Below are positions 11,963 through 56,454 of a stretch of 64,000 bases of DNA, piece after piece. The DNA comes from Trichaptum fuscoviolaceum. Its lineage: Eukaryota; Basidiomycota; Agaricomycetes; Hymenochaetales; Trichaptaceae. Made by a program: the position numbers and the translations under genes. Below the pieces are notes generated by a model that saw only the letters and a program-made list of their open reading frames with translations, was not told where the DNA came from and searched no databases. The stretch covers positions 2,234,707-2,298,706 of the forward strand of contig CAJSYZ010000008.1 of NCBI GenBank assembly GCA_910574455.1. The letters are read 5' to 3'. Every line of letters begins with the position of its first letter. Position 1 is the stretch's first letter.

Positions 11963-12484
11963 ATGACAGAATAAACCATATCTGACTTAGTAGAAGACAT
12001 ACAGTGTAAGCTTAGCATAAAATGTAAGATAAACATGCTGCAGGAGCAACGACAGAAGCGAAGTGATTAGATGATGTGCCTAGACACTCAACGACAGATG
12101 AATGAAAGGAATGAAAGAATCGGATCAAAGATGCGAAGTATGAAAGGCAAATTGTCGAATGTCGAAGACACAAAGGAACCTCCTCATAGCGCAAGACACA
12201 ATGAAAGGGAGAAAAAAGAGTATTAGAACTCGTCGAATCAGCACAGTTTAGAGTCAGGCCCCGACAACTGGGCACCATCTTCGTCTTCGTCCAAATGTAG
12301 ATCCACGCGCTCGGTTTGCGGGAGTCCTACTCGGCTAATCGACTTCGAGAGCGACACATTCGAGGAGGAATATCACTCGACTGTGGTATCAACTACGGCA
12401 TGCGACGGCTATCCGCTGAAGTCCGATCCAGACGCACCGGATGGTTTGAGTTACACTCCGATGGGGTTCCCGTAATTCGAGCTC

Positions 12485-13317
12485 TCAACGTCTGCTGCAG
12501 AGTTGCGGCTCGGTGACCTCCAGCTCGGACACGAACAGGAGAGTATGACCGAGAATTTCGCCAAGCACCCCCTCGGAATGGTCAAGCGCAATACCGCTGA
12601 GATCGTTGGTGAAGAAAATCATGGGCCTCCTCTCAGATTGCCCGAGAGAGGAGGGACACGGGACGACTTGCGGCACAAGATGCAGGAGGCTTAACTCCCT
12701 TGTCGCAATTGTCAGCTTATCTATCTCGTAGTGCGGGTAATCGATCAAGGCAACTAGTCCCTTCTCGAGCGAGTCAATCGGGATGCCACAGTAAGACGAG
12801 CTGCGGCTCCCGGACCTCCCGCTCGGCCTACGAATAGGAGAACATGACCTGTCCGGACCAGGCTTCATAATAAACATAGTGGCCATAGCCTTGCTCCGGC
12901 TCGGAGGTGTGCCATGACCAAGACCGCCATACGCCTTCTTTGTCCTCTTCGGCGTGCTCGGTGGTCTGCTGGCCAGCTCGATGGGTTGGGCAAGCGAGGA
13001 CCCACCAGCGTGCCTTGGTCCGGGGGGAGTGCTTGTCTAGGCTGAGACGCTGCAGCCTGCCCTACCATGACGGCCTCGAACTGCGACCCAGATGAAGGTT
13101 CGGCCATCACTGCGTGTCTTATCTCAACGATGGTGGGTGAGACAAGGTGCTGCATGCCCGCCAAGTTGCGGCGACTCTCCCGGAGGTTTAGAGGCGAGAG
13201 CGTCATTCGCCCCTTGTCCTTCGCGGGGTGATGTCCTGCCCTCCGAGTCCTAGCCTCATATCGCAGGGGAATCCTCAAGTGCCTCGTCCGAAGAGAGTCA
13301 CTCGCATTCCGCAACAA
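12485..13317 (-). pseudogene. PHYE-family fragment in arm A
   Basis: The minus strand carries MTLSPLNLRESRRNLAGMQ, MKPGPDRSCSPIRRPSGR, LIDYPHYEIDKLTIATRE and RRPMIFFTNDLSG, in two overlapping frames, as in the copy at 6331-7535. After HSEGVLGEILG the sequence switches to a partly repeated SCSP-like tail instead of the two downstream exons of the 6.3-kb copy. It is therefore 3'-truncated. Compared with its partner in A' it retains the SPIRRPSGRS segment that A' has lost. Confidence 0.6.
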
Positions 13318-14601
13318 CTAAATTCTTAGACCTGCCAGCCTTTGGAGCTTACCAGTATACGAGCGACGCTATGGATCATCCCCGCAATGCCATTCATGCG
13401 ACAGGTTTTTGCGTCTCGTTCAAATGCCTGAGTAGCCGGGTATGCTACAACGACGTAGACTGGAGATGGATTGGGGGGAGGGGGGAAATGGTGCGGGGGT
13501 TGGTTGGGAAAGGATGAAGTCGCATATGCGCCCTTGACGTAGTCCAGATATTGAGCTCAACTAGAAACACTCCGTATTACCTGCCAGTAACCGACGGAGT
13601 GCATCTTTCCAGGAGCTGCGAGTGCGGAAGAGGGTTAGAAGGGGGCGGATTAGGAGATGTCGGACGAATGTATGTAGACGCAAACTTACTATATGCCTTA
13701 TGATTATGCAAGAGTTATGGAAAACAAGCGAGAGGCTGTTCCCCGAAGGGAAGGCCGTATCGATCCATCGGTCGACGGGCTTCGTCTTTTAACAGTGCTT
13801 CGGTGGCCAACTTGGAAAGAGCAACTCAGCCTAAAGCAGACCGGCGCCCACCACCTCCGTCCACCACAATGCTTGAGCCAAGTATCGACAAAAGAATACA
13901 GGTGATTGATAATGCACACTCGTCGCGGGAGGTGGTGGCCTTTCTCGCTGAGATCGCTAGCTAATCTCTGCAAGAAAGACAACAAAAAACGTGGACAGGT
14001 GGTCAGAGAGGGCAGATGATAAGGTCGGCTGTCAGCTCTTCTAGTATGCTCAGGCATCCGAAGAAAGCAAACAATGGATCAGATATTCTCGCCCGGTGTT
14101 TCTCCAGTTCCAAAGTCCCATGAAAATGGCTGCACTCACTTTCCGTATTCTCCGAAATGCAGTGCGAGATCACCTATGATCATATATAAGAGCCTGTCTA
14201 CTTTGAGTGTGCCCCGTGTGTCGTAGATTTCTGTTCCAAAGCTATGTGGGCGATTGGGTTCAAGAATTCCAGTCCTTAGACCCGCTCTTGTACATCTTTC
14301 CGACGAGACAATCTCTGCTGGGAGTTTTGCGAGTAAGACCATTGGTATGTCTAGGAGCTGTCAATTCCGAGGCCAGAGTCGGCGGAATCATAGCAATGTT
14401 GTTGACACAGAGAAGGTGATCAGAATTAGTAGGCATATCATATGCACGACAAGTTGGCGAGATATCATCCAAAATCTAAGCTGGATTCTGAAATATTGCT
14501 TGCGATGTAGGCGAGTGTTAGTGGGTTCAGATGCGTTACAAGGAGACCTCAGACAACTTAAAGATCGGTACTCCGATTCAAGTTGAAGCTCCGTCGAAAT
14601 C

Positions 14602-14646
14602 CCTTCATTTCTATTTTCATTTCCATTTTCATTTTCATTTTCAATT
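14602..14646. repeat. TTTTCA-type microsatellite (arm A)
   Basis: About seven imperfect copies of a 6-mer (ttttca/tttcca) lie in a row. The mirror copy in A' is at 37943-37990, where it reads as gaaaat/ggaaat. Confidence 0.85.
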
Positions 14647-14826
14647 CTCATGCTACCTCAACTTCAAGTTGAATCATGAATTACACACTACTACGCATTA
14701 GCTGACTGATCTGTTGATTATGTTCTTCCTTAATCATCGAGCACCCTACCGTCGTTGCCCTGCCGCATATAAACCGTTGGTCGCTTGTGCAAGCTAGCTA
14801 AGTTATTTACATGCTATTCATCTTCA

Positions 14827-15452
14827 ATGGCCGCAGTCGATGTCGTAAAGACCAGCATCCCTCATTTTGTTGCTATGAATGACGGTGAAGTGCCGTATAT
14901 CATGCACGACACGGACCTCAAGCTTGCCAAACCCCGCGCAATTTCACGCCCGAGCCAATTGACGTCGAGGTCGAGAATATACGTGGTAAAGAATATTCGG
15001 TCTCATTACTAGACACTGCCGGCTTCCAGTTCTTCCGCGCGGAGACGAGTATCCAGTCGTTTGACAGCAAGGAGGAAATTGAAAGGGTGTATTACCCCGA
15101 GAGCATTGACTTGATGAAACGGCTCACCGGTGCGAACAGAGTTGTCATTTTCGACCATAGTAAGTCATTGGAATCGCATTCTGATTGAGAAAAGCCTTTT
15201 CTTATAACTGCGTTGTAGCGATGCGTCGGAGACGCCCAGGAGAGACCGAAGACACTCTTGATCAAGTGTGCTTGTCAGAGTCTCTCGCTACAGGAACACT
15301 AATACTTAAGACGTGAACCCAGCTTCGATTCAATCCAGGATGGTAGCGTTGCAGTCTTGACGCCTCACACTTCCTTCGCAGACCCAACGACACCACCCGA
15401 CGCACCACCCCGTGAATCTATTGAAGTCCGTATGCTAGTTTTCTACAATTGA
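14827..15452 (+). pseudogene. Broken CmcJ/NvfI-type oxidoreductase gene (arm A)
   Basis: This is the arm-A partner of the intact gene at 36732-37783. The start (MAAVDVVKTSIPHFV), the block GFQFFRAETSIQSFDSK and the end DAPPRESIEVRMLVFYN are all present. A one-base loss in exon 1 just after the DTDLK codons shifts the frame. A deletion of roughly 400 bp then removes the region from MRRRRPGETED to VLIK, including the His/Asp-containing core and two introns. The two changes make a functional product very unlikely. Confidence 0.85.
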
Positions 15453-16546
15453 CTTCACTTGTCAAGTTACAAGTGTAGTATGCCGTGTTGTATGATTCGG
15501 ACGGGAGTAAGAAACAATTGTTTCATGTGTACAGTATAGCATTCCTTCGAGTGTAAAGTATATGCATTGAAAACTCTTTAATTATTCCCTTTGATTGACC
15601 TCGTTAGTTGCAGAACGAAAGATGAAATAAACAACACTGGTGCATCCAAGCGATAATTGAATGAACCTCGGGGCGGCATATGGCCCACAGAAAGGGGAAG
15701 GACATGACTGACAAAATAACAAAGGAAACTGGTACAAAGAATCTAGATGAAAGACAAACACTTGGATGAAAGATAATCATGAGGCTCAGCATACAAGCCG
15801 AATGTCGAACAGATGTGCAATTGGTTCAATAGATGGTATCATATTCAAAGACAAAGATAAAGGACACAAAGGGCATAAAGACAAAGGGCATGTGAGCGAA
15901 ACCTCGAGTTATGATTTACGCAGACCAATGAAGGACTCAAAGGAAGGAATAAGACTTATGAGCGAGAGAAAAACCAAACAGTTTGATTCGGTCGCTTGGT
16001 TGCTGCAAGCATCTATACCGTTCGGAAGGTGTGCAACGGCGGGTGGATGCTGCAACATCCATCCGCCAATGCCCCTGGGCTAGCTCATCTGCGTCTTCAC
16101 CAATGTTTAACCAGGGCCAGAAACTTGAGCTACCTCTCCACCTCTTGTACTAACGGGCATTCTATGATCAATGCAGCTCGCGCAACGATTATTTCCCTAG
16201 ACGACTTTCGGGATCAGCACGACAACATGCGCGAAGTGGGCCGCATTCTTGACGAACACCAATCATTAGATTTGAGGACAATCGCGACTTGTGAGAGGCA
16301 GGGCAGGATGTGGCTCTGCACCAGTAGGCAGTTGTGGTTGATCCAAAGGCGAATTGTTCTGCGGCGGTGTCTGTGAGCTCGACGCACACTGCACTGGACT
16401 CTGCAGATAACTTGGAGCATTGAAGGTGAACTTAAATCCTGAAGTGTCTGCAGCACGAAGGTCTGGGAACGCCCACAGGCACCTTTTATCGTGTGGCGCT
16501 CATTGGATGGCGGAAATACACGTTGTCATCCTCCCACTCTTCTTCA

Positions 16547-16672
16547 TCATCCACATCGCTCGATCGTTGGTCCTTCACTGTGCTCGTCATCAGTCTCGGC
16601 ATCCGACTCGTAGCCAGCGTCAGGTGGTGGTTCATAGTGTGTGTCATCCCTCAGGATGTACGAAAGAGACAT
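16547..16672 (-). pseudogene. Truncated acidic short-protein gene (arm A)
   Basis: Reading starts MSLSYILRDDTHYEP, matching the 84-residue acidic proteins at 23354-23608 and 59225-59479, but stops after about 41 codons because of a frame change in the acidic tract. The out-of-frame remainder still encodes DDEEEWEDD-like sequence. The same lesion is present in A' (35512-35637), so it predates the A/A' duplication. Confidence 0.6.
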
Positions 16673-18179
16673 CTTGGACTGGATGTTAACTGCACAGGTG
16701 ATTAAGTACCGAAAAACGAACGGGGCAGAGAGGGTATGACTGCGAGGGAGACTCGATTCATGGACTGCCCTTATGAAGGACGTCGGTGACCTGGGACAAG
16801 CAAGGATTTATCCCGTTCGAGGGCAACTGCCATGGGATTGGATGAGATTGGCGGCTGATATGAAGGGGTACCGGATTCAAGCCGAGATAGAACGTCAAAT
16901 ATCGCGTCGGGAGTTGGGACCCGGGGTGCATCGTCTGGCAGGATGTGTGCGAATGAGCAGAGAGGACTGAGTCGAGATGTTCGTAGCAGTATATGACATA
17001 TGATTATGCAGTATGACACATAATGGGACACAGTTTTTCGAGGAGCGAAGACTGTGAATACTAGTAGCTCGGTCGCAAAGCGGGCCCTTCTTATAGGCCA
17101 ATAGTGGCTTAGGATAACGACAACTGTTGCCCACCATCGACGTTCGGTACATACCTGATTCGTTTCGTGTAGCAATCAAATTGTCTTTGCCTGCTGCTCT
17201 AGTCGGAACAGACAAAGGATTTCTAGCCACCACTGCAGAGCTTCAAAGATCAGAGGCATCAGTTACTCCTTTACGATGGACGTAGGATGATCTCGAAGGG
17301 GGAAGCGGTGGGCTGGTGGCCCTCGATGGCGTGCGCATCGTCACTCGCTGTCTGCCTCATAGACTAAGGGCGAGTGGAAGCCCTGTAGAAGCAGACTGGA
17401 CGTGCACATTGTAAGAGTCCTTTCAAGAATCAAGTAAATATGTGATTTGTTCGTTGCTCACGATGAGATTGCGCCAACCCAAGAATCTTAATACTTTCCA
17501 GAATATCTGAGCCGTAGCAGCCGTGCTAACAAGTCTTGCTGTTATAGGTTCACAGCTATAGCGAAGGGTATTGATCTGCAAAGTTGGTTGTAAGAGGGCT
17601 GGCGCGCGGCGGCACGGCGTAGTAGTACTACTAGTAGTAGTGCCGCTATGCCAGTGATGAGTCATTGATGCGCCGGCCCGGCCACTGGTTACTCTGTAGT
17701 ACTAAGTATCTGAGCGCAAAGCTATAACTGTCGTCACTGATCAATGCAAAATGAGATGAAATCAATTAGGCACCTACATAAACAGGTCCAGTTGATACAA
17801 TACCAGTCATACATAAACTATGATTGCGGCTGAAGTTTTGTATCAGGAAATTAGCGGTAAAGTTAGTTGCGGCAGAAACTTGAAGTCTCAGATAGCCGTC
17901 GATAGTATGAATTTATACGATGCCATTTTAAATAATGAAAATCAAGGCCCAAAGGAGTGTGTGTAGTACTATGTACAAGAGAGATATAGAGACTAAGAGA
18001 CGGAAGAAGAGACGAGAGAGAGAAAGTAGGAAAGGAAACATATCAAGCCCAAAGGAGTGTGTGGAGTACTACGTACAAGAGAGGAATAGAGACATAGATA
18101 GAGAAAACAATTAAAAAGGTGAATATGCGCCAGAGATGTCGAACGATCATAATCCAATGAATTCCGGATATTGACGTGG

Positions 18180-19310
18180 TCAAATGCTTAGCCCGAAAGC
18201 GAAGGCTGAATCACAACGGCAGAAGACGATAACCAACTCTCCCTACAAGAGTGGCCGTCCCCGGCGAAGTGCAGTACCTTCTAGTAGGCCGAAACAGTGA
18301 TTGCCAGTCGGTGTCCAGTAATTACGAGTGGAAGCTTGCGAGACTCCTTGAGTATCGAGCATCAACGAAAAAAGGAGACCGGGGTATATAAGAGAGACTG
18401 AGAGAGAGAAGGTTTGATAGACATTGAGTTTTATAGCCAGTAGACCTATCCAAAGAGCGTGACAAAGAGGCGAATCAGTGTCAGATGGAAGATGGTCCTG
18501 ATGTCGACCGGTCTCGTAGGCCACCAGGAAATCCGAGTGGTTGGCGTGGTCAATTGCTAAGCCCGGCAGCGAAGATTTTGATACATCGAATAGTGTATAT
18601 CTTCTAATAGGTCGAAGCAGTGATTGCCAGCCGTTCTTCGGTATTTGCTTGCGGTAGGTCACGGGACTCCTTGAGTGTCGAACATCGCCCAGCAGGAGAT
18701 TTAAGGACGAGAGGAAAAGAAAGGAGACAGGACTAGGGAGACAACAGAAGTGTGCCAGTAGACCCATCCAACGGGCGTGGCAGAGAGGCGAATCAATGCC
18801 AAATGGAAGACGGTCTTGATGTCGATCAGCCTTGTAGACCACCAGAAATTCCGAGTGTTTGGCGTGGTCAAGCGCTAAGCCCGGCAGCGAAGATTTTGAT
18901 ACAATGACTAGTGTATATCTTCTAATAGGTCGAAGCGGTGATAACCAGCCGGTGTTCGGAACTTGTGTGTGGTAGGTCGAAGGACTCCTTGAATGTCGAA
19001 CATCGCCCAGCAGGAAATTATGATGGAGACAAGATTAAGAAGGCAAGAGAAATTTGCCAGAAGACCCATCCAAAGAGCGTGACAAAGAGGCGAATCAGTG
19101 TCAAATGGAAGTCGGTCTTGATGTCGATTGGTCTTGTAGACCACCAGGAATTCCGAAAGGTTGGCGAGGTCAGTGCTAAGCCCGGCAGCGAAGATTTTGT
19201 TACAACCAATAGTGTATATCTTCTAATAGGTCGAAGCACTGATGTCAGCCGTTCCTCGGTAATTGCGTGTTGGTAGTTCACTTGAGTATCCAACATCGTC
19301 CAGCAAGAGA
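18180..19310 (-). repeat. Tandem array, about 300-320 bp units (arm A)
   Basis: The motif ctaagcccggcagcgaagat recurs at about 18558, 18877 and 19176, with a divergent version near 18187. A second motif around ccatccaaagagcgtgac recurs with the same spacing (about 18446, 18765, 19064). This gives about 3.5 units of 299-318 bp. On the minus strand a 199-residue frame stays open across two units (HQDRLPFD-type motif repeated). Whether it is translated is unknown. Confidence 0.85.
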
Positions 19311-19806
19311 TTAGAACGAGACGAGTGAGAAGAAGAGACGGATCGACTCAGAGCAGGAGTCAATCCAGGCTGCTTTCCAGAGCTACAGCTATCCCAAGGT
19401 CCCTAGGTGAGGGGAAAGGACCACAGAAGCAGAGCGAGTACAGAGCCAAGCAGAAGTGTCAAAGAGCAGAATGTCCAGGAGTGATGGTCGTCATCGGTGG
19501 AGTCTTTGCGTGGAGAGCGGGAATCGTGAGCGCGAGAACGTGTGCGCTTAGTGGGCGACCTTGACGCCGACGAGACTGAGCCTGGCCTAGGCGCAGTCTG
19601 TCTAGTCAAACCTTGCAGCATTAGATCTGGCCTAGATCTGCCGCTGATGAGGAAATGCCTGGCCTAGGCAATCCCCCAGCAGGACTTGTGCACAGTCTGC
19701 TGTTGACAAGGCACCACAGGGAGTGGGTGAGAGGGTCGATTGACTGGTCGCCGCTTGGATTCCATTGCTAGACTCGAGATTCATGGGACCTCAGGACAGG
19801 GTGGCT

Positions 19807-20053
19807 CTACTCTTGATGTCTTCTTCGGTACTCTGCTTTCTTGGCTGCTGAGAACTGCTGGAATGGGTCCCTTTCGATCACTGTTAAAAGGAGTTAGGAT
19901 GGCAGCGCGTAACAAGAGAAAGATGGACTTACGATCATGAATAGGGGCAGCAAGTAGCAAATGTCGTGCATCACGGGACTTGACACGACGTTCGCCAGTA
20001 TCCTTGTGACTGACAAGCAAGGGTGTGTTTGGCGCTAGCCCGACAGGTCGCAT
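19807..20053 (-). CDS. Small spliced ORF (64 aa), or last exons of a longer gene (arm A)
   Basis: Two exons, 20053-19933 and 19880-19807, join through a good GTAAGT donor and a TTTTAACAG acceptor. The product begins MRPVGLAPNTPLLVSHKDTG and ends ERDPFQQFSAAKKAEYRR plus five residues. The same structure is kept in A' (32128-32374). It lies just downstream, in transcription sense, of the 255-bp exon-like array and could be that gene's 3' end. No family recognised. Confidence 0.4.
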
Positions 20054-20189
20054 GTATCGTAGGTCGCTGACAGGCGAATGTCAGAAAGCCGAGGAAACTG
20101 TCGAGTCGGAAGCGGATGATTAACGAGGTCGCTCAGTGGACGCAAACTCGGGTGCTTCGGTAACTGCACCAGGATGGTTGTTGAAGTCT

Positions 20190-21060
20190 GGATGGCAAAC
20201 TTCCTAGACTGAGGGTGAGAAAGGTAGCAAGCAAATAAGAGTGTAAATGCTCACATTTTCAGAAGTGGTTTGCCACTTAACAGATTGGACTCAGGATTGG
20301 ACCCAGGAAAATGGGTGGCAACTTCCTACACTGTGTCTGACGGTTAGACTGCATTACAAGAAAAGAAGAAGATAAAAAAACTCACGTTTTCGGAAGGGGA
20401 ACTGCCGTCCAAGCTAATGGACCCGAGGCTTCCACTAACTCTGAGGTTTAGTATATGAGCAAGGGTCGAAGAAATGTGCTGCCTACAATCGAAGAAAAAG
20501 CCTCTGCTATACTGGCTATGTCGAGTAGACAATACCAACTCGATTGGACCCAGAATGATGGATACCTGGGTGGCAACTTCCTACACTGCAATTGAGGGTG
20601 AGAACGGCATTCAAGAACAGATGGAGAAGAATATGCTTACGTTTTCGGAAGGGGACCTGCCGTCCAAACTAATGGACCCGAGGCTTACACTAACTCTGAG
20701 GTTTAGTATGTGATCAAGCATCGAAGAGAAGTGCTTCCTACAATTGAATGAAAAGCCTCTGCTATACTGGCAATGAGGAGTAGACAATGCCAACTTGATT
20801 GGACCCAGAACAATGTATTTCTGGGTGGCAACTTCCTACACTGCATCTGATAGTTAGAATGGTATTCAAGAACAGAAGAAGCATAAACTAACGTTTTCGG
20901 AACTTGAAGGGGACCTGCCGTCCAAACTAATGGACCCGAGGCGTACATCCTAACTCTGAAGGTCAGTGAACGATCGAGCGTCGAAGAAAAGGTGCCTACG
21001 ATGTAATGAAAAAGCCTCTGCTATACTGGCAATGTCAAGTAGACGATGCCAACTCTAATT
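20190..21060 (-). repeat. Tandem array, about 255 bp units with splice signals (arm A)
   Basis: The motif gggtggcaacttcctacact recurs at about 20311, 20569 and 20823, with a degenerate unit near 20192. The motif cctctgctatactggc follows the same period. On the minus strand each unit ends an exon-like block with CCGAAAAC (or CTGAAAAT) followed by a GT donor, a pyrimidine-rich stretch and an AG acceptor before TGTAGGAAG. Confidence 0.85.
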
Positions 21061-21600
21061 GCCCTGCAAGTGAGCGTCCTCAACAATCATTTCGGAGGAT
21101 ATGCTGGCGCGGCGGATGCAAAGGCGTAGATCGATGATGGACAGATCGATGGAGGGTTGTCCGGGGTGCATCGGAAGCAACACCCTGTGCGCAGAATCGT
21201 CGAAGGAGGCGAATCAGTCGACGAGTAGCACAAGAACTTGGCGAACGTTTTGGGATTGGGGTGCTTGAATAGCGAATACTGGGCTGGTCCGGCCACTGAT
21301 CGGGTGGCACGGGCGGCGAAAACAGGTTGTCGAGGAACAGGGGTACTTTCTATTGAGGTTCAAAGGTCGAATGAAAGGTAGTGTCGAGCAGACACCACTC
21401 GAGTCAAATGGTGCAGATAGTGACGAAGCAGAGAGCCTGAATGGCTAGAACACGATGGGCGAAGTATAAGCGGAGTTGGAGTGGTTGGAGAGCTGTAAAT
21501 GGCTGATGAGTTTGTCGTTGCGAAGTTCCTTGGAAGTAATAAGACGTGAGCAAAGAGAAACAAGAGAAAAGAATAGCACATACCATGTCAGGTTACCCGA

Positions 21601-22075
21601 TCACTTGCATCCCAAGCCATGGCAAGTACTAGCACTTGGCTCGGTAGCTGGTAATATCACTGACATATGGGGTTGTCCTTCGGTTGGCTTCTCATCGGAC
21701 GAATAAAGATCTCCAATGGCGTCGGTTTCCGCAAATATACTTACTATCCCGTCGGTCTGTGATTCATCTTTGGTTACGTCGTAGTCAGGTGGGCTGTAGG
21801 AGAATTCCGGCTCTCCAGGTGGCACAGCGTACCCGACAACTATCTGCGTCTCGAGACTGGTGTATGCGAGGTATACCTCATCGACCTTACTTGCTGAACG
21901 AAAGAATGTCCTGTCGGCGTCGGCCTGTTTGTTGGCAGCCCAGTAGGCGCTGCTCAAGCGTGCTTCGTGTCTGAGGTGAACAAGACTATCGAAGCGCGAA
22001 GCGGAGGGAAATTGTGATCAACGCTGCCGCTGTCGTCAGTGAGGGAACGTCCTTGACTTGCTCTTCCGTGTCCAT
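21601..22075 (-). CDS. Predicted short gene of the repeat unit (copy A)
   Basis: An ATG at 22075 (MDTEEQVKDVPSLTTAAA) can join, through a 50-bp GTTGAT...CTCAG intron, to a frame reading HEARLSSAYWAANKQADADR, then TFFRSASKVDEVYLAYTSLE, and ending at 21601 or splicing further at a strong GTAAGT donor after QTDGI. A TATATATT box lies about 170 bp upstream of the start. The three copies (also 30118 and 62874) let the frame be compared: A and A'' are open, A' is broken. The 3' end is uncertain. No family recognised. Confidence 0.4.
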
Positions 22076-22939
22076 AGAGTCGTCCTTCTCCAGGTAAGGA
22101 GCGTGGTGTGGAACGAGTGTGGTGGTAAAGGAGTGTGGTGGCAAAGGAGTGGACGGATGAAGGAGATGACAATAGGAGGTGGAGGAAGGAAGTCAAGGAG
22201 GGAATTCGATGAGGGTCTCTCTGGACGAAAACGCTAGGAATATATACGAGGTAGGGAGGTGGCTGACAGTCTAGATCGCCCGTGCTCGCTGCACCCGAGG
22301 GCTGGCAATGCACTAACGCTTGAAGCTTGAGCCGGTGCCAAAATGAGTTGCGAGTTCCTACTACGCGAAGTTCGTACAAGTCCTCAGGCGCCAGAGTTCG
22401 CAAGCTGAGAAGTTCCAGAGTTATGAGCAAGATACTATCGCGCGCAAGGCTATGATGATTGGAAACTTCAGCGGGGAGCTCGGGAAAGTGGCTGGAAACA
22501 TGAAAGTTTGGTTCTGGATCTAATGACGCGAAAGGTAGGTGGCTGGCTGTTGCCAAGATTTTGCAGCCAATTTCCTGCTAACTGTTTGGATATCGGAATT
22601 GAAGATGCCAGTGTGGGGCTTACGAGTAAAGTACCGTTCAGAATATGTTCATTCGATGAAAGAGTTGCGGCTCGTTCAAGTCCGCTGGTTTTCCAACAAT
22701 CCAGAACCGATGCACCGACTTCTCCTACGAAAGTTTAACTTATCCAGTCCTCTCAGTGGCTCATCTCTAACAGCCCAGTAAGCCATAAAGTCATCGTTGA
22801 CGAGTAAACAGATCTGAGGTTGAGCTATGAGATAACAGAAGGTAGACATGAGCGTTCGCACGAGGTGACTTAGACACACCGTGCTCTCTCCTGACTCTGG
22901 GCCTCTACTATAATCCGAACTCACTGCATGCAATGCAGT

Positions 22940-26451: not shown

Positions 26452-26888
26452 TAGGATATGGATGTTACTGTCAGAGGATACTGTATATGAAGGAAATGAC
26501 TTTGTCGAATTGTAGAGTACCAGTGTGTGTGGGAAGCTCACTGAACTGCAAGTGATTGAACTGGCCGATCAGTGCCTTTTACCACGATGCTTGAACTTGA
26601 ACCAAACCTTCATCTCTGTCCTTGCGCATCACCATATTTCACTTTATCTTGATACTATGAAACTATTTTCTGCTGCCTTTCTGTCTAGCCTAGACGACTC
26701 TGCATCACTAACAAGCGATGAACGTGCGGGTTCCAGTCAGCTTGCCAGCCCCTCCATGTCAGCCCAGGACAGTTGTGCATTCCACATAAGATTTGTATTA
26801 TCGGCTCTGAATGATGCACTGCAGCGTCCTGTGTCCAGCACGCACTGCTCGGTGAGGGATACGGCCTTTCGTTCCTTAATTCCTGATA

Positions 26889-28831: not shown

Positions 28832-28867
28832 ATTACTATCTTCTCTCCCTTTCATTGTGCCTTTGTA

Positions 28868-29312
28868 AAAAACGTAGCTTATATTAATGACCTGAGCTTC
28901 CTTTCAGGTTGTACAGTCGTCATTCGATCATTTGCCTGTCATCATATCTGCTTTTTCTTTGATTCATCCCATTCATCCATCTCAGCGTCCCGCTCATCAT
29001 CCAACCACTATCATTGATCTTGCAACATTGCAATGTATTCCATGGCTCCCGCTCTAGGTTACTGTACGTCTTCTATGAAGTCAATTATGCGCTTGTAAAT
29101 CGGCATGTCCAATTCACCTCTGCAGAAACCAGTTCGCTTTGAGCCTTGCCCTGACAAGCCTTCAGTCGCGTTGAACCTGAGCTCTGAATATCGCGCGAAA
29201 TGCTTGAGAGGCTGAGTGGGGCACAGCGTGCGTCGATTTGATGTAAGATGAAGATTTGGGTATAGTTCGGATACAGAGGAGAGTCAGGAGCACAACTTGA
29301 ATGTGACTAAAA
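28868..29312 (+). repeat. Junction segment J (copy next to A')
   Basis: This 445-bp stretch matches 61154-61602 in direct orientation with few differences. It starts around aaaaacgtagctta and ends at aaaagtcaat, immediately before the arm. It thus extends the A'/A'' homology outwards. Arm A retains only a diverged trace of the last 60 bp or so. Confidence 0.85.
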
Positions 29313-30117
29313 GTCAATCTCGTGCGAACGCTCATGTTTATCTTCTGTTATCTCATAGCTCAACCTCAGATCTGTTTACTCGTCAACGATGACTTTATGG
29401 CTTACTGGGCTGTTAGAGATGAGCCACTGAGAGGACTGGATAAGTTAAACTTTCGTAGGAGAAGTCGGTGCATCGGTTCTGGATTGTTGGAAAACCAGCG
29501 GACTTGAACGAGCCGCAACTCTTTCATCGAATGAACATATTCTGAACGGTACTTTACTCGTAAGCCCCACACTGGCATCTTCAATTCCGATATCCAAACA
29601 GTTAGCAGGAAATTGGCTGCAAAATCTTGGCAACAGCCAGCCACCTACCTTTCGCGTCATTAGATCCAGAACCAAACTTTCATGTTTCCAGCCACTTTCC
29701 CGAGCTCCCCGCTGAAGTTTCCAATCATCATAGCCTTGCGCGCGATAGTATCTTGCTCATAACTCTGGAACTTCTCAGCTTGCGAACTCTGGCGCCTGAG
29801 GACTTGTACGAACTTCGCGTAGTAGGAACTCGCAACTCATTTTGGCACCGGCTCAAGCTTCAAGCGTTAGTGCATTGCCAGCCCTCGGGTGCAGCGAGCA
29901 CGGGCGATCTAGACTGTCAGCCACCTCCCTACCTCGTATATATTCCTAGCGTTTTCGTCCAGAGAGACCCTCATCGAATTCCCTCCTTGACTTCCTTCCT
30001 CCACCTCCTATTGTCATCTCCTTCATCCGTCCACTCCTTTGCCACCACACTCCTTTACCACCACACTCGTTCCACACCACGCTCCTTACCTGGAGAAGGA
30101 CGACTCTATGGACACGG

Positions 30118-30581
30118 AAGAGCAAGTCAAGGACGTTCCCTCACTGACGACAGCGGCAGCGTTGATCACAATTTCCCTCCGCTTCGCGCTTCGATAGTCT
30201 TGTTCACCTCAGACACGAAGCACGCTTGAGCAGCGCCTACTGGGCTGCCAACAAACAGGCCGACGCCGACAGGACATTCTTTCGTTCAGCAAGTAAGGTC
30301 GATGAGGTATACCTCGCATACACCAGTCTCGAGACGCAGATAGTTGTCGGGTGCGCTATGTAACTGGAGAGCCGGAATTCTCCTACAGCGCGCCTGGCTA
30401 TGACCAAACCAAAGATGAATCACAGACCGACGGGATAGTAAGTATATTTGCGGAAACCGACGCCATTGGAGATCTTTATTCGTCCGATGAGAAGCCAACC
30501 GAAGGACAACCCCATATGTCAGTGATATTACCAGCTACCGAGCCAAGTGCTAGTACTTGCCATGGCTTGGGATGCAAGTGA
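30118..30581 (+). pseudogene. Frameshifted copy of the repeat-unit short gene (A')
   Basis: Same layout as 22075-21601 and 62874-63348, including the ATG (MDTEEQVK) and the putative 50-bp intron. Here a base is missing in the GGTGCGCTATGTAACTGGAG region, where A'' reads gctatgtcaactgg, creating a stop after about 48 residues of the second exon. A second single-base loss lies near 30667. The other two copies are open at both places. Confidence 0.55.
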
Positions 30582-31119
30582 TCGGGTAACCTGACATGGT
30601 ATGTGCTATTCTTTTCTCTTGTTTCTCTTTGCTCACGTCTTATTACTTCCAAGGAACTTCGCAACGACAAATCATCAGCCATTTACAGCTCTCCAACCAC
30701 TCCAACTCCGCTTATACTTCGCCCATCGTGTTCTAGCCATTCAGGCTCTCTGCTTCGTCACTATCTGCACCATTTGACTCGAGTGGTGTCTGCTCGACAC
30801 TACCTTTCATTCGACCTTTGAACCTCAATAGAAAGTACCCCTGTTCCTCGACAACCTGTTTTCGCCGCCCGTGCCACCCGATCAGTGGCCGGACCAGCCC
30901 AGTATTCGCTATTCAAGCACCCCAATCCCAAAACGTTCGCCAAGTTCTTGTGCTACTCGTCGACTGATTCGCCTCCTTCGACGATTCTGCGCACAGGGTG
31001 TTGCTTCCGATGCACCCCGGACAACCCTCCATCGATCTGTCCATCATCGATCTACGCCTTTGCATCCGCCGCGCCAGCATATCCTCCGAAATGATTGTTG
31101 AGGACGCTCACTTGCAGGG

Positions 31120-31990
31120 CAATTAGAGTTGGCATCGTCTACTTGACATTGCCAGTATAGCAGAGGCTTTTTCATTACATCGTAGGCACCTTTTCTTCGA
31201 CGCTCGATCGTTCACTGACCTTCAGAGTTAGGATGTACGCCTCGGGTCCATTAGTTTGGACGGCAGGTCCCCTTCAAGTTCCGAAAACGTTAGTTTATGC
31301 TTCTTCTGTTCTTGAATACCATTCTAACTATCAGATGCAGTGTAGGAAGTTGCCACCCAGAAATACATTGTTCTGGGTCCAATCAAGTTGGCATTGTCTA
31401 CTCCTCATTGCCAGTATAGCAGAGGCTTTTCATTCAATTGTAGGAAGCACTTCTCTTCGATGCTTGATTACATACTAAACCTCAGAGTTAGTGTAAGCCT
31501 CGGGTCCATTAGTTTGGACGGCAGGTCCCCTTCCGAAAACGTAAGCATATTCTTCTCCATCTGTTCTTGAATGCCGTTCTCACCCTCAATTGCAGTGTAG
31601 GAAGTTGCCACCCAGGTATCCATCATTCTGGGTCCAATCGAGTTGGTATTGTCTACTCGACATAGCCAGTATAGCAGAGGCTTTTTCTTCGATTGTAGGC
31701 AGCACATTTCTTCGACCCTTGCTCATATACTAAACCTCAGAGTTAGTGGAAGCCTCGGGTCCATTAGCTTGGACGGCAGTTCCCCTTCCGAAAACGTGAG
31801 TTTTTTTATCTTCTTCTTTTCTTGTAATGCAGTCTAACCGTCAGACACAGTGTAGGAAGTTGCCACCCATTTTCCTGGGTCCAATCCTGAGTCCAATCTG
31901 TTAAGTGGCAAACCACTTCTGAAAATGTGAGCATTTACACTCTTATTTGCTTGCTACCTTTCTCACCCTCAGTCTAGGAAGTTTGCCATC
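31120..31990 (+). repeat. Tandem array, about 255 bp units with splice signals (A')
   Basis: Four units carry the sequence CCGAAAAC or CTGAAAAT before a donor: GTTAGT (about 31288), GTAAGC (about 31541), GTGAGT (about 31796) and GTGAGC (about 31928). Each is followed by a pyrimidine-rich stretch and CAG before TGTAGGAAG or TCTAGGAAG. A second possible intron in each unit begins GTAGG and ends with a branch-like ATACTAAAC (or similar) plus CTCAG. I found no single long frame through the array. Confidence 0.8.
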
Positions 31991-32127
31991 CAGACTTCAA
32001 CAACCATCCTGGTGCAGTTACCGAAGCACCCGAGTTTGCGTCCACTGAGCGACCTCGTTAATCATCCGCTTCCGACTCGACAGTTTCCTCGGCTTTCTGA
32101 CATTCGCCTGTCAGCGACCTACGATAC

Positions 32128-32374
32128 ATGCGACCTGTCGGGCTAGCGCCAAACACACCCTTGCTTGTCAGTCACAAGGATACTGGCGAACGTCGTGTCA
32201 AGTCCCGTGATGCACGACATTTGCTACTTGCTGCCCCTATTCATGATCGTAAGTCCACCTTTCTCTTGTTACGCGCTGCCATCCTAACTCCTTTTAACAG
32301 TGATCGAAAGGGACCCATTCCAGCAGTTCTCAGCAGCCAAGAAAGCAGAGTACCGAAGAAGTCATCAAGAGTAG
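32128..32374 (+). CDS. Small spliced ORF (64 aa), copy in A'
   Basis: Exons 32128-32248 and 32301-32374 mirror those at 20053-19807 exactly in length and splice sites. Only conservative differences occur (IHDRKS region, RRS versus RRR near the end). Conservation of the intron in both arms fits either a functional gene or simply a recent duplication. Confidence 0.4.
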
Positions 32375-32884
32375 AGCCACCCTGTCCTGAGGTCCCATGA
32401 ATCTCGAGTCTAGCAATGGAATCCAAGCGGCGACCAGTCAATCGACCCTCTCACCCACTCCCTGTGGTGCCTTGTCAACAGCAGGACTGTGCACAAGTCC
32501 TGCTGGGGGATTGCCTAGGCCAGGCATTTCCTCATCAGCGGCAGATCTAGGCCAGATCTAATGCTGCAAGGTTTGACTAGACAGACTGCGCCTAGGCCAG
32601 GCTCAGTCTCGTCGGCGTCAAGGTCGCCCACTAAGCGCACACGTTCTCGCGCCTCACGATTCCCGCTCTCCACGCAAAGACTCCACCGATGACGACCATC
32701 ACTCCTGGACATTCTGCTCTTTGACACTTCTGCTTGGCTCTGTACTCGCTCTGCTTCTGTGGTCCTTTCCCCTCACCTAGGGACCTTGGGATAGCTGTAG
32801 CTCTGGAAAGCAGCCTGGATTGACTCCTGCTCTGAGTCGATCCGTCTTTTCTTCTCACTCGTCTCGTTCTAATCTCTTGCTGGA

Positions 32885-34010
32885 CGATGTTGGATACTCA
32901 AGTGAACTACCAACACGCAATTACCGAGGAACGGCTGACATCAGTGCTTCGACCTATTAGAAGATATACACTATTGGTTGTAACAAAATCTTCGCTGCCG
33001 GGCTTAGCACTGACCTCGCCAACCTTTCGGAATTCCTGGTGGTCTACAAGACCAATCGACATCAAGACCGACTTCCATTTGACACTGATTCGCCTCTTTG
33101 TCACGCTCTTTGGATGGGTCTTCTGGCAAATTTCTCTTGCCTTCTTAATCTTGTCTCCATCATAATTTCCTGCTGGGCGATGTTCGACATTCAAGGAGTC
33201 CTTCGACCTACCACACACAAGTTCCGAACACCGGCTGGTTATCACCGCTTCGACCTATTAGAAGATATACACTAGTCGTTGTATCAAAATCTTCGCTGCC
33301 GGGCTTAGCGCTTGACCACGCCAAACACTCGGAATTTCTGGTGGTCTACAAGGCTGATCGACATCAAGACCGTCTTCCATTTGGCATTGATTCGCCTCTC
33401 TGCCACGCCCGTTGGATGGGTCTACTGGCACACTTCTGTTGTCTCCCTAGTCCTGTCTCCTTTCTTTTCCTCTCGTCCTTAAATCTCCTGCTGGGCGATG
33501 TTCGACACTCAAGGAGTCCCGTGACCTACCGCAAGCAAATACCGAAGAACGGCTGGCAATCACTGCTTCGACCTATTAGAAGATATACACTATTCGATGT
33601 ATCAAAATCTTCGCTGCCGGGCTTAGCAATTGACCACGCCAACCACTCGGATTTCCTGGTGGCCTACGAGACCGGTCGACATCAGGACCATCTTCCATCT
33701 GACACTGATTCGCCTCTTTGTCACGCTCTTTGGATAGGTCTACTGGCTATAAAACTCAATGTCTATCAAACCTTCTCTCTCTCAGTCTCTCTTATATACC
33801 CCGGTCTCCTTTTTTCGTTGATGCTCGATACTCAAGGAGTCTCGCAAGCTTCCACTCGTAATTACTGGACACCGACTGGCAATCACTGTTTCGGCCTACT
33901 AGAAGGTACTGCACTTCGCCGGGGACGGCCACTCTTGTAGGGAGAGTTGGTTATCGTCTTCTGCCGTTGTGATTCAGCCTTCGCTTTCGGGCTAAGCATT
34001 TGACCACGTC
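32885..34010 (+). repeat. Tandem array, about 300-320 bp units (A')
   Basis: Mirror of 18180-19310. Units are marked by cttcgctgccgggcttagca-type sequence and by the HQDRLPF / DSPLCHALWMGLL coding-like motif. The 199-residue open frame at 33341-33940 is identical in sequence to its partner in A. Confidence 0.85.
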
Positions 34011-35511
34011 AATATCCGGAATTCATTGGATTATGATCGTTCGACATCTCTGGCGCATATTCACCTTTTTAATTGTTTTCTCTATCTATGTCTCTATTCC
34101 TCTCTTGTACGTAGTACTCCACACACTCCTTTGGGCTTGATATGTTTCCTTTCCTACTTTCTCTCTCTCGTCTCTTCTTCCGTCTCTTAGTCTCTATATC
34201 TCTCTTGTACATAGTACTACACACACTCCTTTGGGCCTTGATTTTCATTATTTAAAATGGCATCGTATAAATTCATACTATCGACGGCTATCTGAGACTT
34301 CAAGTTTCTGCCGCAACTAACTTTACCGCTAATTTCCTGATACAAAACTTCAGCCGCAATCATAGTTTATGTATGACTGGTATTGTATCAACTGGACCTG
34401 TTTATGTAGGTGCCTAATTGATTTCATCTCATTTTGCATTGATCAGTGACGACAGTTATAGCTTTGCGCTCAGATACTTAGTACTACAGAGTAACCAGTG
34501 GCCGGGCCGGCGTCATCAATGACTCATCACTGGCATAGCGGCACTACTACTAGTAGTACTACTACGCCGTGCCGCCGCGCGCCAGCCCTCTTACAACCAA
34601 CTTTGCAGATCAATACCCTTCGCTATAGCTGTGAACCTATAACAGCAAGACTTGTTAGCACGGCTGCTACGGCTCAGATATTCTGGAAAGTATTAAGATT
34701 CTTGGGTTGGCGCAATCTCATCGTGAGCAACGAACAAATCACATATTTACTTGATTCTTGAAAGGACTCTTACAATGTGCACGTCCAGTCTGCTTCTACA
34801 GGGCTTCCACTCGCCCTTAGTCTATGAGGCAGACAACGAGTGACGATGCGCACGCCATCGAGGGCCACCAGCCCACCGCTTCCCCCTTCGAGATCATCCT
34901 ACGTCCATCGTAAAGGAGTAACTGATGCCTCTGATCTTTGAAGCTCTGCAGTGGTGGCTAGAAATCCTTTGTCTGTTCCGACTAGAGCAGCAGGCAAAGA
35001 CAATTTGATTGCTACACGAAACGAATCAGGTATGTACCGAACGTCGATGGTGGGCAACAGTTGTCGTTATCCTAAGCCACTATTGGCCTATAAGAAGGGC
35101 CCGCTTTGCGACCGAGCTACTAGTATTCACAGTCTTCGCTCCTCGAAAAACTGTGTCCCATTATGTGTCATACTGCATAATCATATGTCATATACTGCTA
35201 CGAACATCTCGACTCAGTCCTCTCTGCTCATTCGCACACATCCTGCCAGACGATGCACCCCGGGTCCCAACTCCCGACGCGATGTTTGACGTTCTATCTC
35301 GGCTTGAATCCGGTACCCCTTCCTATCAGCCGCCAATCTCATCCAATCCCATGGCAGTTGCCCTCGAACGGGATAAATCCTTGCTTGTCCCAGGTCACCG
35401 ACGTCCTTCATAAGGGCAGTCCATGAATCGAGTCTCCCTCGCAGTCATACCCTCTCTGCCCCGCTCGTTTTTCGGTACTTAATCACCTGTGCAGTTAACA
35501 TCCAGTCCAAG

Positions 35512-35637
35512 ATGTCTCTTTCGTACATCCTGAGGGATGACACACACTATGAACCACCACCTGACGCTGGCTACGAGTCGGATGCCGAGACTGATGACGA
35601 GCACAGTGAAGGACCAACGATCGAGCGATGTGGATGA
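35512..35637 (+). pseudogene. Truncated acidic short-protein gene (A')
   Basis: Begins MSLSYILRDDTHYEPPPDAG and stops prematurely at the same position as the arm-A copy (16547-16672). The intact relatives are at 23354-23608 and 59225-59479. Confidence 0.6.
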
Positions 35638-36731
35638 TGAAGAAGAGTGGGAGGATGACAACGTGTATTTCCGCCATCCAATGAGCGCCACACGATAAAA
35701 GGTGCATGGGGGCGTTCCCAGACCTACGTGCTGCAGACACTTCAGGATTCAAGTTCACCTTCAACGCTCCAAGTTCTCTGCAGAGTCCAGTGCAGTGTGC
35801 GTCGAGCTCACAGACACCGCCGCAGAACAATTCGCCTTTGGATCAACCACAACTGCCTACTGGTGCAGAGCCACATCCTGCCCTGCCTCTCACAAGTCGC
35901 GATTGTCCTCAAATCTAATGATTGGTGTTCGTCAAGAATGCGGCCCACTTCGCGCATGTAGTCGTGCTGATCCCGAAAGTCATCATGGGAAATAATCGTT
36001 GCGCGAGCTGCATTGATCATAGAATGCCCGTTAGTACAAGAGGTGGAGAGGTAGCTCAAGTTTCTGGCACTGGTTAAACATTGGTGAAGACGCAGATGAG
36101 CTAGCCCAGGGGCATTGGCGGATGGATGTTGCAGCATCCACCCGCCGTTGCACACCTTCCGAACGGTATAGATGCTTGCAGCAACCAAGCGACCGAATCA
36201 AACTGTTTGGTTTCTCTCTCGCTCATAAGTCTTATTCCTTCCTTTGAGTCCTTCATTGGTCTGCGTAAATCATAACTCGAGGTTTCGCTCACATGCCCTT
36301 TGTCTTTATGCCCTTTGTGTCCTTTATCTTTGTCTTTGAATATGATACCATCTATTGAACCAATTGCACATCTGTTCGACATTCGGCTTGTATGCTGAGC
36401 CTCATGATTATCTTTCATCCAAGTGTTTGTCTTTCACCTAGATTCTTTGTACCAGTTTCCTTTGTTATTTTGTCAGTCATGTTCTTCCCCTTTCTGTGGG
36501 CCATATGCCGCCCCGAGGTTCATTCAATTATCGCTTGGATGCACCAGTGTTGTTTATTTCATCTTTCGTTCTGCAACTAACGAGGTCCATCAAAGGGAAT
36601 AATTAAGGAGTTTTCAATGCATATACTTTACACTCGAAGGAATGCTATACTGTACACATGAAACAATTGTTTCTTACTCCCGTCCGAATCATACAACAAG
36701 ACATACTACACTTGTAACTTGACAAGTGAAG

Positions 36732-37783
36732 TCAATTGTAGAAAACTAGCATACGGACTTCAATAGATTCACGGGGTGGTGCGTCGGGTGGTGTCGTTGG
36801 GTCTGCGAAGGAAGTATGAGGCGTCAAGACTGCAACGCTACCATCCTGGATTGAATCGAAGCTGGGTTCACGTCTTTAGTATCAGGGTTCTTGTAGCTAG
36901 AGACTCTGACATGCCACTTGATCAAGACAATCTCTTCGGGGGTCATCCCCCGGACGTACTTCCATTTGTGATTTGGGTTATGACGCACATTGAACGTCTC
37001 GCCCTCTCGGTCAGGGTACCTGAGCATGGTTACGACGAGGTCATTCTGCGGATCGACGCTGCGATAATCATAGAGCGCGAGAGGATGGTCAAGGGCCGGG
37101 TGGTGGATCGGTCGCCATAAATTAATCTATGATACAACATCAGACAAGTAAATGAATTAAACACGATAATTAGCAAATCGAACAGGTGAAACCAGGAGAC
37201 GCTACGCGAGCAATCGGCATACTTACAATCTGGAAGCGCTTCTTCAGCAGTGCGGGGACGTCCTCGGGAGGGAGGTGACGATGTACACGGGCAACCGCAG
37301 CAGCAGATGTCTGATCGACATGCGCGCGTGAGACGGGTTGCCGCCTCCCGGGAGCGTCTTCGGTCTCTCCTGGGTGTCTCCGACGCATCGCTACAACGCA
37401 GTTGTAAGAAAAGGCTTTTCTCAATCAGAATGCGATTCCAATGACTTACTATGGTCGAAAATGACAACTCTGTTCGCACCGGTGAGCCGTTTCATCAAGT
37501 CAATGCTCTCGGGGTAATACACCCTTTCAATTTCCTCCTTGCTGTCAAACGACTGGATACTCGTCTCCGCGCGGAAGAACTGGAAGCCGGCAGTGTCTAG
37601 TAATGAGACCGAATATTCTTTACCACGTATATTCTCGACCTCGACGTCAATTGGCTCGGGCGTGAAATTGCGCAGAGCTTGGCCAGCCTTGAGGTCCGGG
37701 TCGTGCATGATGTACGGCACTTCACCGTCATTCGTAGGAACTAAATGAGGGATGCTGGTCTCTACGATATCGACTGCGGCCAT
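36732..37783 (-). CDS. CmcJ/NvfI-family (GA4-desaturase-like) oxidoreductase
   Basis: Four exons are inferred: 37783-37450, 37390-37227, 37126-36915 and 36861-36732; total 840 nt, 279 residues, the usual length for the family. Signatures in order: FFRAETSIQSFDSK, then HPGETEDAPGRRQPVSRAHV with DQT, RFQIINLWRPI, HPLALYDYRSV, RYPDREGETFNVRHNPNHKW, YVRGMTPEEIVLIKCFDS, LTPHTSFADPTTPPDAPPRE and SIEVRMLVFYN. Members of this family are iron/2-oxoglutarate-type hydroxylases or desaturases, often in fungal secondary-metabolite clusters, but no cluster is seen here. Intron 3 must start with GC (GCATGT) to keep frame. The ATG at 37783 is the first in frame. It is the only intact copy of three in the window. 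Confidence 0.88.
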
Positions 37784-37942
37784 TGAAGATGAATAGATAG
37801 CCTGCACAAGCGACCAACGGTTTATATGCGGCAGGGCAACGACGGTAGGGTGCTCGATGATTAAGGAAGAACATAATCAACAGATCAGTCAGCTAATGCG
37901 TAGTAGTGTGTAATTCATGATTCAACTTGAAGTTGAGGTAGC

Positions 37943-37990
37943 ATGAGAATTGAAAATGGAAATGAAAATGGAAATGAAAATAGAAATGAA
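37943..37990. repeat. GAAAAT-type microsatellite (A')
   Basis: Six-base units gaaaat/ggaaat repeat about seven times; mirror of 14602-14646. Confidence 0.85.
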
Positions 37991-39249
37991 GGGATTTCGA
38001 CGGAGCTTCAACTTGAATCGGAGTACCGACCTTTAAGTTGTCTGAGGTCTCCTTGTAACGCATCTGAACCCACTAACACTCGCCTACATCGCAAGCAATA
38101 TTTCAGAATCCAGCTTAGATTTTGGATGATATCTCGCCAACTTGTCGTGCATATGATATGCCTACTAATTCTGATCACCTTCTCTCTGTGTCAACAACAT
38201 TGCTATGATTCCGCCGACTCTGGCCTCGGAATTGACAGCTCTTAGACATACCAATGGTCTTACTCGCAAAACTCCCAGCAGAGATTGTCTCGTCGGAAAG
38301 ATGTACAAGAGCGGGTCTAAGGACTGGAATTCTTGAACCCAATCGCCCACATAGCTTTGGAACAGAAATCTACGACACACGGGGCACACTCAAAGTAGAC
38401 AGGCTCTTATATATGATCATAGGTGATCTCGCAGTGCATTTCGGAGAATACGGAAAGTGAGTGCAGCCATTTTCACGGGACTTTGGAACTGGAGAAACAC
38501 CGGGCGAGAATATCTGATCCATTGTTTGCTTTCTTCGGATGCCTGAGCATACTAGAAGAGCTGACAGCCGACCTTATCATCTGCCCTCTCTGACCACCTG
38601 ACCACATTTTTATGTCTTTCTTGCAGGGATTAGCTAGCGATCGCAGCGAGAAAGGCCACCACCTCCCGCGACGAGTGTGCCCTGGATTTCTTTGTCGATA
38701 CTTTCCTCTATCTTTGTGGTGGGCGCCGGTCTGCTTTAGCCTGAGTTGATCTTTCCAAGTTGGCCACCGAAGAACTGTTAAGAGACGAAGCTCGTCGACG
38801 GATGGGTCAATGCGGCCTTCCTTTCGGGGAACAGGCTCTCGCTTGTTTTCCATAACCATTGCATAATCATAAGGCATATAGTAAGTTTGCGTCTACATAC
38901 ATTCTTCTGACATCCCCAAATCCGCTCCCTTCTAACCCTCTTCAATCGCAGCTCCTGGAAAGATACACTCCGTCGGTTACTGGCAGGTAATACGGAGTGT
39001 TTCTAGTTGAGCTCAACATCCGGACTACGTCGAGGGCGCATATGCGACTTCATCCTTTCCCAACCAACCCCCGCACCATTTCCCCCCTCCCCCCAATCCA
39101 TCTCCAGTCTACGTCGTTGTAGCATACCCGGCTACTCAGGCACTTGAACGAGACGCAAAAACCTGTCGCATGAATGGCATTGCGGGGATGATCCATAGCG
39201 TCGCTCGTATACTGGCAAGCTCCAATGGCTTGCAGCTCTAAGAATTTAG

Positions 39250-39950
39250 TTGTTGCGGAATGCGAGTGACTCTCTTCGGACGAGGCACTTGAGGATTCCC
39301 CTGCGATATGAGGCTAGGACTCGGAGGGCAGGACATCACCCCGCGAAGGACAAGGGGCGAATGACGCTCTCGCCTCTAAACCTCCGGGAGAGTCGCCGCA
39401 ACTTGGCGGGCATGCAGCACCTTGTCTCACCCACCATCGTTGAGATAAGACACGCAGTGATGGCCGAACCTTCATCTGGGTCGCAGTTCGAGGCCGTCAT
39501 GGTAGGGCAGGCTGCAGCGTCTCAGCCTAGACAAGCACTCCCCCCGCACCAAGGCACGCTGGTGGGTCCTCGCTTGCCCAACCCATCGAGCTGGCCAGCA
39601 GACCACCGAGCACGCCGAAGAGGACAAAGAAGGCGTATGGCGGTCTTGGTCATGGCACACCTCCGAGCCGGAGCAAGGCTATGGCCACTATGTTTATTAT
39701 GAAGCCTGGTCCGGACAGGACAGGGAGCCGCAGCTCGTATTACTGTGGCATCCCGATTGACTCGCTCGAGAAGGGACCAGTTGCCTTGATCGATTACCCG
39801 CACTACGAGATAGATAAGCTGACAATTGCGACAAGGGAGTTAAGCCTCCTGCATCTTGTGCCGCAAGTCGTCCCGTGTCCCTCCTCTCTCGGGCAATCTG
39901 AGAGGAGGCCCATGATTTTCTTCTCTCAGCGGTATTGCGCTTGACCATTC
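39250..39950 (+). pseudogene. PHYE-family fragment in A'
   Basis: Carries LTLSPQ-like (LSPLNLRESRRNLAGMQ), MKPGPDRT, LIDYPHYEIDKLTIATRE and RRPMIFF blocks. Relative to arm A it has lost the SPIRRPSGRS codons and a short stretch at the NDLSG motif (MIFFSQRYCA), so the frame is damaged twice. The C-terminal tail continues to a QLSGPDSKLC end at about 40287 that also resembles the end of the ORF at 60937-61131. Confidence 0.6.
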
Positions 39951-40779
39951 CGAGGGGGTGCTTGGCGAAATTCTCGGTCATACTCTCCTGTTCGTGTCCG
40001 AGCTGGAGGTCACCGAGCCGCAGCTCTGCAGCAGACGTTGAGAGCTCGAATTACAGGAACCCCATCGGAGTGTAACTCAAACCATCCGGAGCGTCTGGAT
40101 CGGACTTCAGCGGATAGCCGTCGCATGCCGTAGTTGATACCACAGTCGAGTGATATTCCTCCTCGAATGTGGCGCTCTCGAAGTCGATTGGCCGAGTAGG
40201 ACTCCCGCAAACCGAGCGCGTGGATCTACATTTGGACGAAGACGAAGATGGTGCCCAGTTGTCGGGGCCTGACTCTAAACTGTGCTGATTCGATGAGTTC
40301 TAATACTTTTTTTTATCCCTTTCATTGTGTCTTGCGCTATGAGGAGGTTCCTTTGTGTCTTCGTCATTTGACATTTTGCCTTTCATCCTTCACATCTTTG
40401 ATCCGATTCTTTGATTCCTTCCTTTCATCAGTCTCAGGCCAGGCTGAGTGTCTAGGCACACCATCCAAACATTTCTCTCCTGTCATTGCTCATAGAGCAG
40501 ATTTATATTATTTCTTATGCCTATCTATTGCTCGAAAGTAGCTTTCACAATGTTTTTATTACAAATCAGAATGTTTCTGTCCTGTGTTCTATGAGTTCTC
40601 GACACCTGTGATTTCCTCAGCTATAAATCTAAAATTCATACACTGCTGTCTTACACGTTCTTTTATTTTTAAACATGACCTTATTATCTTTGAAATTCTA
40701 TATTATGCTGCTATGGATACAAAAGGGATACAAGAAGCGAAAACATATGAATATGAAGAGAGGAAACTTATATTGACAT

Positions 40780-56450: not shown

Positions 56451-56454
56451 CGGG

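Follow-up and report, generated by a model that had tools for sequence, protein, structure and literature searches.

A large palindrome in Trichaptum fuscoviolaceum and probable gene conversion between copies of a dispersed non-coding repeat

The stretch of Trichaptum fuscoviolaceum DNA analyzed here (64,000 nucleotides, hereafter the window; C8:2234707–2298706, forward strand, C8 being contig CAJSYZ010000008.1) displays a palindrome with arms of about 11 kb. The palindrome appears to be a genuine inverted segmental duplication, and assembly error is unlikely. Very probably, the inner parts of its arms have been homogenised by ectopic gene conversion between copies of a repeat, termed E, that is present in eight copies on C8. 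The assembly consists of 12 contigs (59.09 Mb) and the window is located mid-contig on C8, which is 4.36 Mb long.

Structure of the palindrome and divergence along its arms

The original prediction, made from the sequence alone, described a very large inverted repeat with arms of about 11 kb and a loop of about 6 kb. Self-BLAST bears this out by pairing 12015–22898 with 40520–29280, and the predicted edges (11963–22935 and 29313–40590) are correct within ~70 bp. The parts of the palindrome, in window positions, are:

12015–22898, + strand, left arm (self-BLAST, windowed alignment)
22899–29279, loop, ~6.4 kb (windowed alignment)
29280–40520, − strand, right arm (self-BLAST, windowed alignment)
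16901–22820, homogenised stretch of the left arm (outside the patch described below, 5859 sites with 6 differences)

The inverted pairing is far above chance (BLAST E = 0) and consists of two segments, 15246–22898 with 36939–29280 (99.1% identity over 7.66 kb) and 12015–15257 with 40520–37352 (93.9% over 3.26 kb, gaps counted). There are 144 substitutions between the arms in 12015–22820, and 426 bp present in the right arm are absent from the left. The left flank, the loop and the right flank display no homology to each other across the arm edges. The longest identical runs are 1234, 1011, 797 and 788 bp and window identities range from 89.5% to 100%.

Self-alignment and sliding-window identity confirm the inverted pair and show that its identity is uneven, with a step near 16.9 kb. 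In 250-bp windows of a global alignment the arms are 96.0–99.6% identical between 12.15 and 16.9 kb, with one window at 89.5%, and 99.6–100% identical between 16.9 and 22.65 kb, with one window at 96.0%. The outer arms (12015–16900) differ at 128 of 4799 sites, whereas the inner arms (16901–22820), with the patch excluded, differ at 6 of 5859 (Fisher p = 4e-37). An identity greater than 99% is thus found in the inner arms and not in the outer arms, nor over the whole arm. The step falls within one collinear arm, about 1 kb outside E. CpG-directed mutation was considered as a source of the outer-arm divergence and rejected; CpG transitions make up 14 of 99, 3 of 29 and 4 of 31 substitutions in three arm sections, and there is no strong bias.

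Repeat E and the evidence for gene conversion

Each arm carries one copy of E as its inner 5 kb (E4 on the left, E5 on the right). E is ~5 kb long, and its eight C8 copies lie in both orientations within ~254 kb. The copies are as follows, with strands relative to the left arm:

E1, C8:2201171–2205578, − (genome search with the left arm)
E2, C8:2218042–2222108, + (genome search with the left arm)
E3, C8:2228416–2232585, − (genome search with the left arm)
E4, window 17869–22898, +, inner left arm (genome search)
E5, window 29280–34314, −, inner right arm (genome search)
E6, C8:2296788–2301743, −, i.e. window 62082–64000, where the window edge cuts it, running on to 67037
E7, C8:2394070–2398299, − (genome search)
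E8, C8:2450985–2454902, + (genome search)

The original prediction recognized both arms but missed the third inner copy at 62082 and the eight-copy family.

The left arm gives at least 110 matches when used as a query against the genome, a lower bound in that 38 of 162 first-look candidates were scored. Relatives of E are found on nine other contigs (C2–C5, C7, C9–C12) with 81–89% identity in matches longer than 800 bp, and further relatives are present elsewhere on C8. A core is common to all eight C8 copies and the dispersed relatives. The outer ends of the C8 copies show no sharp limits and fade at differing points. E contains tandem repeats of 255 bp and 318 bp. E was rejected as a coding gene: its two open frames have no Pfam match, there is no coding signal, and its indels display no preference for multiples of three. 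Consistent 3-base periodicity was not found, with single windows down to p = 0.0008 uncorrected. An RNA gene was rejected as well, with neither an Rfam match nor a tRNA within the window.

E4 carries a short tract that differs from its partner in the right arm:

21776–21830, conversion tract in E4 (E1–E3 bases at 10 of 10 sites)

Over 3690 ungapped eight-way columns E4 and E5 differ at 15 positions, and 10 of these are in the tract. At all 10, E4 agrees with E1, E2 and E3, copies that are 20–50 kb away. Outside the tract E4 has the E5 base at 265 of 267 diagnostic sites, i.e. sites where E1 and E5 differ, and E5-type sites flank the tract on either side, at E5 positions 30210 and 30483. The patch is found exactly in E1 and E2 and with one mismatch in E3. 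It is not carried by E6–E8 (9–10 mismatches), nor by any of seven dispersed copies where these are readable (8–11 mismatches); the comparison left out E5, which has an indel there.

Longer tracts are seen between other copies. Across five consecutive windows (E5 32487–33963, 1415 aligned columns) there is no difference among E1, E2 and E3, and the edges of these copies are homologous but diverged, with identities of 46–88% on one side and 57–98% on the other. Both E1 and E3 are 98.6–99.7% identical to E5 in 32188–33078, with neighboring stretches near 90%. For 21 of the 28 copy pairs, none of 2000 column shuffles gave an agreeing run as long as the longest one observed. The C8 E cores are mosaics.

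The sequences that were duplicated together with E provide a comparison:

57299–59875, +, partial inverted copy of 22961–25543, adjoining E6 (96.7% identity, self-BLAST)
28865–29318, E5 flank common to the E6 flank at 61152–61602 (93.5% identity, self-BLAST)

Both values are below the E4–E6 and E5–E6 identities of 98.9–99.1%. The original prediction that gene conversion keeps the arms alike holds in part; the mosaic tract and the sharp divergence step speak for it, but homogenisation is confined to the inner half of the arms and also involves copies located outside the palindrome.

The outer arms contain two copies of a gene for a putative enzyme:

36732–37783, −, enzyme gene of the right arm, open over four inferred exons
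14800–15480 (limits approximate), +, left-arm copy, disrupted by a frame break and the 426-bp deletion

The exon limits of the right-arm gene were placed by hand, and one of the introns inferred is of the GC-AG type. A search with the exon-joined protein gives 2720 relatives at E ≤ 0.001. PF27522 is present in all 120 relatives listed, and some of these are named 7alpha-cephem-methoxylase P8 chain related. One copy of the gene is broken, thus conversion did not preserve the gene; it acted on the adjoining repeat.

Explanations for the arm identity

The favored explanation, which is considered highly probable, is that each arm consists of a gene segment plus one copy of the non-coding repeat E. 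After the inverted duplication, double-strand breaks in or near E would have been repaired from another E copy without crossover. Repeated repair of this kind would overwrite the inner arms, by kilobases per event and sometimes by less than 300 bp. The outer arms would have been spared from recent conversion, and the two gene copies may therefore have diverged and one of them decayed. Arm identity would then be a by-product of recombination among repeats, rather than of selection to keep the gene.

Several points weigh against this explanation. It leaves the origin of the first inverted duplication unexplained. A duplication at a very recent date, confined to the inner part, could in principle account for E4 and E5. 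The shuffle test is weak among E4, E5 and E6 (P = 0.020 for E4–E5, 0.070 for E4–E6 and 0.32 for E5–E6) and gives values of 0.0025 for E2–E4, 0.026 for E4–E7, 0.036 for E5–E7 and 0.001 for E6–E7, and column shuffling ignores rate variation along E. The evidence is from one assembly of one strain only.

Near-identical inverted arms are a known assembly hazard, and a fold-back, or the opposite joining of two haplotypes of a dikaryon, has to be considered. Such an artefact is quite improbable in view of the lack of homology among flanks and loop across the arm edges, the 144 substitutions between the arms, a third E copy ~28 kb further along, and a tract in E4 that comes from other copies. A divergence step would also be expected without conversion if the inner part had been re-duplicated much later than the outer part, or if E had recently inserted at both sites. 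However, the step is within one collinear arm, at 16.9 kb and ~1 kb outside E, the C8 copies do not have the element ends that are found in dispersed relatives, and both the E4 tract and the gradual loss of similarity at the edges of E1–E3 require exchange; this account is accordingly judged improbable. The presence of one core in eight copies and in dispersed relatives could suggest that selection keeps E alike as a functional RNA or gene. Constraint does not explain the identity, because the same sequence differs by 11–19% on other contigs (matches longer than 800 bp). In addition, there is neither an Rfam match within the window nor a coding signal, and selection does not produce a block of linked differences. 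Selection on E is the most improbable of these explanations.

A further proposal goes beyond homogenisation by conversion. E may be a mobile recombination hotspot, spread by Helitron-like and other transposons, which attracts breaks and templates repair where copies lie close. This is a doubtful proposal at present. If true, E would first make palindromes and then keep their arms alike, and two E relatives in inverted orientation on C5 (98.9% identity along 3.5 kb) would be a second case.

Dispersed relatives, known systems and genomic setting

Two relatives of E, one on C4 (4.05 kb) and one on C2 (3.97 kb), are elements that share sharp ends. One end displays TCCCCTGGCTTG; at the other the hairpin GCCACCACGGTGGC precedes CCATATTGCAA, ~11 nt before the 3′ end. 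The 3′-end pattern is found at 27 genome sites (15 exact, 12 with one mismatch; control 0) and the 5′-end pattern, which begins with TC, at 14 (controls 0). The base preceding TCCCC is A in 11 of the 14 5′ ends and G in 3, and 12 of the 14 have a 3′ partner in the expected orientation 3.4 to 7.7 kb off. All six 3′ ends that were read terminate in GCAA and not in CTRR, and all six are directly followed by T. Both flanks are seen in two copies; the C2 copy has no target duplication and the C4 copy has TTGA on each side, perhaps by chance. Of 27 matches to the Helitron Rep domain, two lie 4.1 kb inside such a 3′ end, running against the orientation that the ends imply. The C8 copies E1–E8 have no element-end pattern with up to three mismatches at C8 2.20–2.46 Mb. 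A C9/C4 pair of relatives containing the E core has 14-bp inverted ends.

Compared with fungal Helitrons as described in two reports (PMC4289320, PMC5148889), the relatives of E are similar in the 5′ TC and the hairpin ~11 nt before the 3′ end, and perhaps also in the T that follows and in the two 3′ ends 4.1 kb from a Rep domain. They differ in having 3′ GCAA rather than CTRR and a Rep sense opposite to the ends. Also unlike Helitrons, the C8 copies are without ends and the core occurs as well in the element with 14-bp inverted ends. On sequence features, the dispersed relatives appear Helitron-like with a non-canonical 3′ end, and E is best described as a transposon-related module carried by several mobile elements.

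The C5 pair mentioned above (C5:1595292–1604351; L012, L013) has its Helitron-like 3′ ends facing each other with ~0.7 kb between them. C7:1145600–1149900 and C11:2469200–2473500 (L046, L047) are 99.7% identical over at least 4.2 kb with an E-like core inside. No ends are visible within the stretch compared, which is similar throughout, and the pair is taken, from its sequence, as a putative longer, recently spread element. A 377-aa frame in a C4 relative of E resembled a captured piece of cell-wall glucan synthase; Pfam and PDB sequences gave no support and the assignment was dropped.

Palindromes kept alike by conversion are best known from sex chromosomes, and concerted evolution of multicopy repeats is a known process. 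The C8 copies of E resemble the latter in being more alike than their age, judged by the flanks, allows. They differ from tandem arrays in concerted evolution in that they are scattered, inverted and single among ordinary genes. In mammalian sex-chromosome palindromes, conversion is reported to hold arms more than 99% identical (PMC8981503). The C8 palindrome is similar in its inverted arms, unique spacer and near-identity via intrachromosomal gene conversion. In contrast to the palindromes of that report, only the inner half of the C8 arms exceeds 99%, the homogenised part is an eight-copy non-coding repeat and not a gene, and the arms are 11 kb long, the median for the primate X palindromes being 37 kb. 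The likeness to sex-chromosome palindromes that was originally proposed is retained for the conversion signature; no sign of a link to a sex or mating chromosome was found with Homeobox_KN or the listed STE3 matches. Homeobox_KN matches are confined to C7 and C2, with none in the window (other homeodomain families were not searched). Among the STE3 matches listed, none is in the window and the closest is ~81 kb to its left. A mating-type locus thus has no support from the matches listed, although a weaker STE3 match may lie closer.

The STE3 pheromone-receptor family has 176 exon-level matches in the genome, with dense groups on C8, e.g. at C8:94–466 kb and C8:2.10–2.15 Mb. Four putative receptors are described for Trichaptum (PMC8970355), a number that the STE3 receptor-like genes here far exceed.

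In listings of the open-licence literature, no title was found that describes a palindrome of this kind on a nuclear chromosome of a fungus. The C8 palindrome is located among ordinary basidiomycete genes and reveals the tracts directly, one of them short (54 bp or more), the others kilobase-long. The point where homogenisation stops is visible, and the eight copies, the co-duplicated flanks and the diverged relatives are built-in controls. It would allow the rate and bias of ectopic gene conversion to be measured in a mushroom-forming fungus.

Other features of the window are:

24387–26232, −, loop gene with zf-C3HC and NuBaID_C domains (Pfam)
26880–28733, +, open frame of 617 aa within the loop, without a Pfam match
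6429–7077, a third, older copy of part of the outer-arm sequence (83% identity with the left arm, 78% with the right)
61602–62084, short dispersed repeat with inverted ends, adjoining E6 (with six longer matches at other genomic sites)

The best copy of the 61602–62084 repeat elsewhere is on C3 (93%). The neighborhood of the palindrome is rich in genes, including ones that encode a cytochrome P450 and a Ribosomal_L10 protein. Among the matches listed for TPS1 from the window, the best named relative is that of Rickenella mellea, with 87% identity, which places the organism among basidiomycetes close to Rickenella. A reverse-transcriptase domain ~23 kb left of the window is presumably that of telomerase, judged by its motifs. 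To the right of the window on C8, a frame of 713 aa that matches MORN and MACPF_SNTX (L035:1361–3499) lies near an AIG1-like GTPase frame (L035:4517–5458). Window positions 55648–57201 contain a repeat with inverted ends (pieces of 115–127 bp, 99–100%), and its 202-bp end pieces are found again as inverted pairs on C9 and C1.

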